NCBI RefSeq assembly: GCF_030463535.1
Contig: NC_132891.1
Coordinates: forward strand, 9,943,449-10,007,448
DNA: 64,000 nt
Direction of reading: 5' to 3'
From: Salminus brasiliensis
Lineage: Eukaryota; Chordata; Actinopteri; Characiformes; Bryconidae
Shown here: one piece after another, positions 12,701-15,700 of the stretch
How positions within the stretch are numbered: the stretch's first letter is position 1
How the letters are laid out: each line of letters starts with the position of its first letter
Notes under the pieces: generated by a model
Seen by the model: only the letters and a program-made list of their open reading frames with translations
What the model was told of the DNA's origin: nothing
The model's database searches: none
Program-made: the position numbers and the translations under genes

Positions 12701-15700
12701 CAGGCCATATTTGTTTGGTTAGGTTATGTTGGTGGTGAAGGCTAAATGTAGAAGTCAAAGCAGTGGTTATAGATTTAATGTTACACTCATATGCATGAAC
12801 TGGTTGCTCTTAAGGAATGTTAGCTTGAACCCAATGGCATGAATTACGGTTAAGACATGCAGGATTGAGGATAGTTTATATCAGAGTTTGTTTAATGGAG
12901 TTGGAGGTTTACTCGAGTACTCTCAGTCCCTTTAGTCTACGTTTTTTTGTGTTGCGCACACAGCTGGAGAGTACATCTGAAAGACTAGGTGCAAAAGGCT
13001 CTCCTGAACTGAAGATGGCACTGCAGAAGGACCATGTCGAGAAGCTTCAGCACCTTTTAGCCGAGTCCTATGCTGCCGTAATGGACTTGACACGACAGCT
13101 GAAGGTGTGTGAGCGGAACCGGAACTGTGAGAGGCAGGAGCTTCTAAAACACCTGAACCAGGCTCGTCTGGACTGGGATAAGCAGAACAAAAATGTCCAG
13201 GTAAGAGATTTCCTTAGTTTGAACCCTTAAACTATGTTTATAACAAAGTAATAAGCCACAAGAACTGTTGTTTCTCTTTCATCTTCAGCCTTTTTTTTAC
13301 CCAAATTTCTTCCCCAATTTTATATTTTAGCCAATTACCCAACCCACCCATTAGTACTCTCCCCCATCACATGTAATGCTCCCGACACCTCATTTCGAAC
13401 TGCCACAGATGCAGCGCCACCGGGCAACTTTGACAGGCAGCATGATCCAGGATTTGAAACAGCGGTCCTCGAGTCATAGTGGCAGTCTTAGCCCGCTGGA
13501 CCACTCAGAGCCCCTAACCACAATTAAGTTAGTGTAACAGATCTAGAGCGGCTTGTTGCTTTTATAAAAGTCTGACAAAAAAATAATATGATAATATGCA
13601 TTAGTGGTCAATGAACAATTTAATTCTTTATTATTAATAATAGCAATGAACAGATATTCCGCCAAGCAATGCAGTTGTTTAACAATGGGCAATATAACAG
13701 TCATAGATTATTCATTGAACACATAACTTGTCACATAAATACTAAATATATCCACATATGAACAATCATATTTTACAATGCATTGGAAATGTTAGAAGAG
13801 GAACTATTTTATAGTTGAGGTGTATTACACATCTCATAATCAATAAGATCCACAGCGTGAGTATTTATCTTGCCTACATAGTGGGGTTCAAAAGGCCACA
13901 CTAATAATCTAGGATTTGTTCCCTTTAAGCCTGGAAATAAACAACACAAAGTTTGATTTTTTTAATAAAAAAAGAAAAAGAGTGAGAAGTAAACAATGTT
14001 TAATATAATCAAAGATTCGAGAGCTGCACTCAAAACCAACAACATCAGAACTCCCTCTCCCTTGAATATGTAGTTGTGATACCAGCACTACTTGCATATT
14101 TAATACCAGTGATTATTAGGCATAAAAAAACAGCATACTACTCAACTATTGGCCATGTTTCAAACTGTCGCTCAGGAAACGAGGGAGTTAGGCACGTATG
14201 TGTGAGGGTGGTATTTAGGCTAATCCTCTGTTGGGACTGCGGTACAGTAGGGCAAAGCGCAGACATCAACTGCAATCAGGACCTCGAAGTGCTTAGCCAG
14301 AGCACACAGACCGGAGACAGCACTACAGTAATTTAATAGATTAATAAGGACGTGACTATGAATTACATGACAGGACATTAAAAAAACTGAGACACAGACA
14401 TGCATTTTTATTTTTTATTATTATTATTTTTTGTTTAAAAAGAACTTGGGTGTTGCAAATGACGGCAACATACAGCTGTACACACTACAGTGACTGTGCT
14501 GGGGTGAAATGAGGCCTGTGTCTTCGGAATTTATCCAAGATGTTTTTCTTGATCTCTGAGTGTTTCTGCTCCCACTCCTGCATACTTCACAGGCCGTAAT
14601 CCCTCACTCCCTGACACACTTTTCCTAAATAAGACCGGCATTTTCCTCAAGTTATTGTGCCTAAACTGCTTAACACAAACTCTAATATCGTAGGCTGCCA
14701 GTCTGCCCACAACATTAAAATACATTCTTGTCATGCCTGTCTGTCCCCAGGCTCATGGATGTAAGACACCACTGAGAGGAGAAGAAACCAACAGGTCAGT
14801 TTTATCTCAGTAGTAACATCTGAACACATGGGCTTCACAGGCTAGCATTTATATTTGTATCCTCACACATTTCTGAAATCACGCTTTTTGATTTATGGGT
14901 GGGCTGCATTTATATGAACTTCTACCTTTGCCACTACTCTTCTGTTCATAACTGGGCCTGTAGTTCATCTACTCCACTGCTCAGGGAACTCAAATGGGGT
15001 CCGGAAGCCATCAAAGGGTCAAGTACTAACAGAAATGAATTTCTTCACAGGCCGAATCCTAAAATTGGCCAATCAGCACGTTTGTCCAGCAAGAACTGGT
15101 TGTACCTCAATCGAGAGGCAGCTCTTATGGACACAGAAGATCCATGCAAGACCTGGGACTGTCCCCTCATGCCTCCCAGCTTCCCTAATATGAACCTAAA
15201 GCAGGAATCAGCTCAGAAAAGCCACACAGCTCCAGAGAGAACCACACTGAGGATATACTACAGTCCCCCTTCGGCACGCAGAATCCACCTCAGCGCCGTG
15301 ACAGTACATCAGGCCGAGTGTGAGGAGCCTCGTGATAGGCAAGGACAAAACTGCCACCTATCTTCATCTCAGCATATCAATGGAGATTCAGCCACTGTTT
15401 ATGAAAGCTGGCTTGGGACTCTACCGCTTGAATGCCACAGTGCAATAGAGCGTGGTCCTGTTGATGCAGTAAGAGCCAGCTCTTCTTCTGGTTTCCAAAC
15501 TCATGGACTTTCCTCTCCATCTTGCTTGGCCTTCAGTTTGGAGGTGTCGGCAAACATGAGTGATGACATGAAGGAAATGACAGCCAGTGTCCTGCAATCT
15601 TCCCACCCCAGCACTCCAGAAAGGAGAAGAGGGAGGGACTCTGGGAGCCATATTGTGGGACTGATCAGCACAGGAACCCAAACCAATACACAGCCACAAG

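Follow-up and report, generated by a model that had tools for sequence, protein, structure and literature searches.

Most of intron 8 in an apparent fish SOGA/MTCL-family gene is an inverted copy of sequence from exon 4

The window analysed here, a stretch of 64,000 nucleotides of Salminus brasiliensis DNA, contains a gene with a short intron that reads largely as the reverse complement of one of the gene's own exons. This raises the questions of which of the two sequences was copied, whether the copying made the intron or refilled an older one, and whether the complementary arms are of any use to the gene. The gene is oriented on the forward strand, ends with a stop codon near 16908, and looks like a fish member of the SOGA/MTCL coiled-coil family. 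A Pfam search (E up to 10) located a SOGA domain at residues 2-96 of exon 4 (E 7.7e-26) and no domain over the copied part of that exon. The exon numbering is that of the preliminary description, which was made from sequence only, and the phases of exons 4-9 are mutually consistent with the limits of intron 8. The features concerned are:

9252..10382, + strand, exon 4 of the apparent SOGA/MTCL-family gene, 377 codons
10001..10251, + strand, presumed source segment within exon 4, residues about 250-333, with its core at 10031-10171
14751..14794, + strand, exon 8, 44 nt, entered at phase 0 and left at phase 2
14795..15050, + strand, intron 8, 256 nt, with GT at 14795 and the closing AG at 15050
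15024..15030, + strand, branch-point-like TACTAAC, 20 nt upstream of the 3' splice site, from a motif scan
15051..16479, + strand, exon 9, opening in phase 2

When 14795-15050 was aligned locally to the reverse complement of 9252-10382, the score was 81, while 500 dinucleotide shuffles of the intron gave a mean of 20.8 (sd 3.0) and a maximum of 33. Exon 4 was also compared on both strands with 240 further tiles of the window, each of 256 bases and none overlapping another, and no score exceeded 31. The best alignment joins intron bases 14797-15044 to exon bases 10001-10251 with 178 of 234 aligned bases identical, so that the match extends well past the 17-base identical run from which the preliminary description had started, and the claim that an inverted exon 4 copy fills most of intron 8 was upheld. 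The two sequences are about 24% different (K2P distance 0.29). The run itself was rejected as a signal of constraint, since it is expected at this divergence: in simulations at 76% identity over 234 bases, an identical run of at least 17 arose in 41% of cases. In blastn, the core of the match was 14872-15011 against 10171-10031 on the minus strand, with 74% identity over 146 columns and an E value of 5e-19 for a comparison of 600 x 1600 bases.

The extent of the copy on either side of this core was evaluated with extensions anchored at it. On the 5' side the extension scored 9.5; among 2000 shuffles 35 attained this value, and among 624 real-sequence controls 7 did. On the 3' side it scored 3.5, which 34 of 2000 shuffles attained, but so did 68 of 627 real-sequence controls. 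A smaller first anchored run had given 4/300 (30 nt of exon 8 being part of this test) and 5/300 shuffles reaching the score. Unanchored, the flanking pieces were weak, both on the 5' side (score reached by 63 and 88 of 1000 shuffles) and on the 3' side (151 of 1000). They were no better than the piece just beyond the 5' splice site, where 82 of 1000 shuffles reached the score, with 510 of 1000 doing so for the sequence just beyond the 3' splice site. The copy can thus be divided as follows:

14872..15011, - strand, solid part of the inverted exon 4 copy, reverse complement of 10031-10171
14797..14871, - strand, probable continuation to the 5' splice site, from the anchored extension test
15012..15044, - strand, possible continuation to the 3' splice site, with above-control support absent (68/627 controls reach the score)

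It is probable that the copy reaches the 5' splice site, and it is not established that it reaches the 3' end; because of this, it is said to make up most of intron 8 and not all of it. Intron 8 is mostly an inverted copy of about 140 bases of exon 4, probably more, and up to 250.

The copy number of both arms was determined in the animal's own genome (1.07 Gb, 103 contigs). Intron 8 with its flanks matched only itself and exon 4, and the exon 4 segment matched only itself and intron 8 (2 matches of 2 scored candidates in each case); in this search very common words were skipped and the best candidates alone were scored, which makes the result strong but not absolute. Since each arm matches only itself and the other arm, a dispersed repeat is ruled against, and the inverted exon-to-intron copy is single and genuine. 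Self-comparison of the window at E 1e-6 or better yielded 48 non-self pairs, 5 of them roughly two-copy, and the exon 4/intron 8 pair is the sole inverted one among those 5. The notion that exon 4 segment and intron are two copies of one mobile element draws on the fact that the copy occupies most of an intron, as introners do. It was rejected, and is the least credible of all the explanations considered: with common words skipped and the best candidates scored, no third copy was found in the genome, nor was one present in the window, and the exon part contains a coil common to a paralogue, by which the idea is largely refuted.

Five SOGA-domain loci were found in the genome, three of them on contig C14: the window gene and four more, which are the following:

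C14:25187323, SOGA paralogue c14a, domain 75% identical, on the same contig as the window gene
C27:9370073, SOGA paralogue c27
C5:22979162, SOGA paralogue c5
C14:36076891, SOGA paralogue c14b

No inverted copy of exon 4 was found in the paralogues' own loci (about 40 kb each) at E 0.01, with approximate exon limits and, for c5, only 539 bases. The exon 4 counterpart of c14b contains an internal direct repeat of 85 bases, 69% alike, and c14b also shows a direct match of 22 bases. The genome_contigs and viral_contigs collections were searched for relatives of exon 4 as well and, as expected, none was confirmed; in the MTCL/SOGA literature searched, nothing was recognised as dealing with gene structure.

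The direction of copying was assessed with c14a. This paralogue matches residues 142-299 of exon 4 in line (41%, E 8.6e-10), and within the copied segment it matches the coil at residues 265-299 with 34% identity over 35 residues (E 0.001 in a two-sequence test). Since the coil lies in line at the same place of the c14a exon 4, the paralogue shows, at the level of protein similarity, exon 4 as the apparent source and the intronic copy as the derived one, in agreement with the earlier proposal. The coil probably predates the split of the window gene and c14a. At the DNA level the match is faint, the exon segment scoring 23.5 against the c14a exon 4 with 200 shuffles averaging 17.5 and reaching 23 at most, that is, barely nearer than chance, and for this reason the direction rests on the protein match. 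Aligned with its own exon 4, the intronic copy scores 81, compared with 18.5 for the exon 4 of c14a, and c14a as the template was rejected.

The opposite direction, with the intron as the source and exon 4 as the recipient of an inverted copy, gains something from the end of exon 4, which has itself changed: the c14a counterpart of residues 345-377 is an exon of its own (13771-13869 of the joined locus), and the window exon 4 corresponds to a fusion of two c14a exons about 7 kb apart. Nevertheless, this direction was rejected on the c14a protein match and is very improbable, as the coil is in line in the c14a exon and a search with intron 8 through 40 kb at each of the four paralogous loci returned nothing below E 0.39. 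Because that counterpart is a separate exon in c14a, exon 4 of the window gene probably once contained an intron, situated close to the copied segment or within it. Its loss may have come either before or after the copying.

The copy has decayed since it arose, and no constraint on it is visible. In the homologous frame there are 3 stops in 70 codons and most indels are not multiples of three; an antisense coding exon was rejected on account of these stops. The G+C content is 41% in the intronic copy and 48% in the exon segment, with 23 changes in the copy towards A/T and 12 towards G/C (p 0.09). Mismatches are spread evenly over the codon positions (18/77, 16/79 and 22/78, p 0.50). At teleost neutral rates, a distance of 0.29 would put the age of the copy at a guess of tens of millions of years.

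Whether the copying created intron 8 was then examined through the intron positions of the paralogues, where homology was judged by phase and exon order, the sequence beside the splice site not being conserved. In c14a, exon 7 exits in phase 0, with its donor at 18423 in the joined locus, and the exon encoding RTKSISSLSD...NQKNWKYLN...KTWDCP opens in phase 2 (20518 of the joined locus), so a short exon is expected between them, for which the best candidate is 19766-19830 (65 nt). A weaker in-frame donor at 18440 would permit a direct join without exon 8, and the c14a phase-2 intron at the corresponding place is therefore not beyond doubt. In c27, exon 7 likewise exits in phase 0 and the exon RAKSVCSMSD... 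opens in phase 2 after a weak acceptor (score 4.6). For c5, a strong phase-0 donor was found at exon 7 and the following exons were not found. At the corresponding place, the comparison covers 2 of the 4 paralogues, c14a and c27, each with a phase-2 intron. The exon order of the window gene matches theirs, with a phase 0 exit, a short exon, a phase-2 intron and an exon with NWLYLN...KTWDCP. Intron 8 showed no similarity to the c14a intron after the candidate exon 8 (best E 3.1).

Given the phase-2 intron that precedes the corresponding exon in c14a and c27, intron 8 is, as far as phase and exon order can indicate, probably older than the copy, which is then unlikely to be its creator. The preliminary description had left it that the intron was created or replaced by the duplication; of the two, infilling of an older intron fits better with the paralogues, and creation found no support. 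In a creation, the inverted duplication would have made intron 8 afresh within a continuous exon, with its ends serving as splice sites. The best alignment, which starts 2 nt into the intron and stops 6 nt short of its end, is in keeping with this, and so is the motif ACAGG at both intron ends. It is nonetheless unlikely, given the phase-2 introns of the paralogues, the closeness of ACAGG to ordinary splice-site consensus and a 3' end of the match that does not rise above the real-sequence controls. Against infilling, the copy apparently lies almost at the 5' splice site, which an insertion in mid-intron would not require.

The border with exon 9 seems to have been altered as well. Before the stretch that matches c14a there are 53 residues in c14a and 11 in the window exon 9, which has about 40 codons fewer at its start, the match beginning at LNQKNW. 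The R-T/A-K-S opening common to c14a and c27 gave nothing better than E 0.4 in window positions 1-18000. The missing opening adjoins the refilled intron 8. Judging from the comparison with paralogues, the lack of these about 40 codons may mean that the intron 8/exon 9 border was rebuilt when a single deletion was accompanied by a templated inverted insertion. Two separate events, one refilling the intron and the other shortening exon 9, are as possible.

Our preferred reading, with a probability of roughly 0.6, is that a templated inverted copy of exon 4 entered a pre-existing phase-2 intron, or was laid across its end, and then decayed neutrally. In this scheme, a DNA repair or replication event, either a templated insertion or a switch to the opposite strand as template about 4.5 kb away, would have placed the inverted copy into or across the end of the older intron. 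The remainder of the old intron would have been lost, possibly together with about 40 codons of the start of exon 9 in the same event. Afterwards the copy would have decayed without visible constraint, with exon-intron pairing in the pre-mRNA as a possible by-product. As to mechanism, templated insertion from the opposite strand seems the most likely; a reverse-transcribed RNA is possible as a template, since the copied segment sits inside one exon.

Among known systems, the closest are templated insertions and template switches (alt-EJ/SD-MMEJ and MMBIR; PMC7407515, PMC7954356, PMC8421209). According to the available text of these sources, alternative end joining gives direct, inverted and templated insertions (PMC7407515), and template switching is also a source of insertions (PMC7954356). 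Intron 8 resembles them in that unique sequence from nearby was copied once, locally and in inverted orientation, with possible loss of sequence at the site, but here source and target are about 4.5 kb apart, the copy is 140-250 bases long, and its decay obscures any junctions or microhomology, the ends being probable on the 5' side and not above controls on the 3' side.

In intron gain by tandem duplication, the intron sequence also comes from the gene's own exon, and in the part of the review available (PMC3443670) introns with exon-derived content are such tandem duplications. These involve a direct and adjacent exon copy, whereas the copy in intron 8 is inverted, lies about 4.5 kb away from its source and probably came after the intron position. 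Transposon-made fish introns, for example in notothenioid slc26a2 (PMC12357937), and introners (PMC9860276) share with intron 8 a content from elsewhere, as far as those texts were available. Such introns would be expected to have further copies in the genome, but here the source is an exon and no dispersed copies were found. In the literature searched, no description of an inverted exon-to-intron arrangement was recognised, although this does not prove that none exists. An unambiguous inverted example would demonstrate that an old intron can have its body replaced by templated repair without an interruption of splicing, and that an extended duplex between exon and intron can form in a single step, providing raw material for editing or for control of splicing.

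Since the arms are complementary, their pairing in the pre-mRNA was also evaluated. The predicted duplex of exon 4 and intron 8 has an energy of -224 kcal/mol with 190 of 251 exon bases paired. For 100 intron shuffles the mean was -93.5 (sd 7.4) and the lowest value -111.1, and no other tile in the first 18 kb went below -121.3, with the exception of one that overlaps intron 8. The long duplex put forward in the preliminary description is thus supported as a prediction. On the intron, the predicted pairing begins close to the 5' splice site and stops about 5 nt before the 3' end, so that it would overlap the 5' splice site and the branch region. If intron 8 were retained, a stop at intron bases 17-19 would truncate the protein. 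Pairing in trans would be possible too, between the excised intron and exon 4, since the latter is retained in the mRNA.

It is conceivable that the intronic arm has been kept in order to pair with exon 4, either for ADAR recoding of the coil or as a regulator of intron 8 splicing. The strength of the predicted duplex relative to the shuffles and the early stop that retention would bring are compatible with such a role, which we nonetheless regard as quite unlikely. Transitions that keep a G-U pair number 16 and those that break pairing 13 (p 0.71), so that between the two copies there is no excess of pairing-keeping changes and no sign of selection for pairing. Moreover, a stronger competitor is predicted in the same transcript, at -427 kcal/mol, between the two arms of an inverted repeat, for which the label transposon-like comes from the several copies of it in the window:

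4957..5410, strand not assigned, transposon-like inverted repeat, arm in intron 2
12127..12555, strand not assigned, transposon-like inverted repeat, arm in intron 6

As this repeat surrounds exon 4, its pairing would compete with that of exon 4 and intron 8. ADAR editing complementary sequences (PMC4053966) are alike in that an intron stretch is complementary to an exon of the same pre-mRNA, and the stable exon-intron duplex that marks them is present here as a prediction. In Drosophila such sequences are highly conserved, according to the available part of that source, in contrast to the lack of a sign of selection seen here when the two copies are compared.

Circular RNA from this pairing is not favoured, because one arm is exonic. 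In back-splicing repeats such as the HIPK3 Alu pair, the complementary arms are likewise long and separated by more than 2 kb of the same pre-mRNA, but in the available text of PMC12093144 the arms occupy the introns on either side of the circularised exon, while in the window gene one arm is in exon 4 and the other within the short intron itself. The suggestion that exons 5-8 could be circularised is therefore weakened by the exonic arm, by the overlap of the other arm with the splicing signals of its intron and by the stronger intron 2/6 repeat. On predicted energies, that repeat, which lies around exons 3-6, would be the better candidate for circular RNA or editing.

A further version would join origin and role: a repair event would have produced a self-antisense intron with which the gene limits its own splicing, or by which the coil is recoded by ADAR. 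If so, most of the old intron and the beginning of exon 9 would have been deleted in one event and replaced by exon 4 sequence in inverted orientation, and the excised intron would be complementary to a stretch kept in the mature mRNA. We consider this improbable; the copy is most likely a neutral relic of DNA repair, most likely with no function.

The remainder of the window holds other repeats and a second gene. Two direct repeat copies, 80% alike, lie at 19187-19388 and 21835-22033, and a 98% inverted copy of part of this repeat is found at 45140-45259; it looks like a tRNA-derived SINE. The next gene, also on the forward strand, begins in the region 18625-20230, and its protein looks like SIKE1/FGFR1OP2. 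Another direct two-copy repeat, 69% alike, occupies 56546-56822 and 58296-58547.
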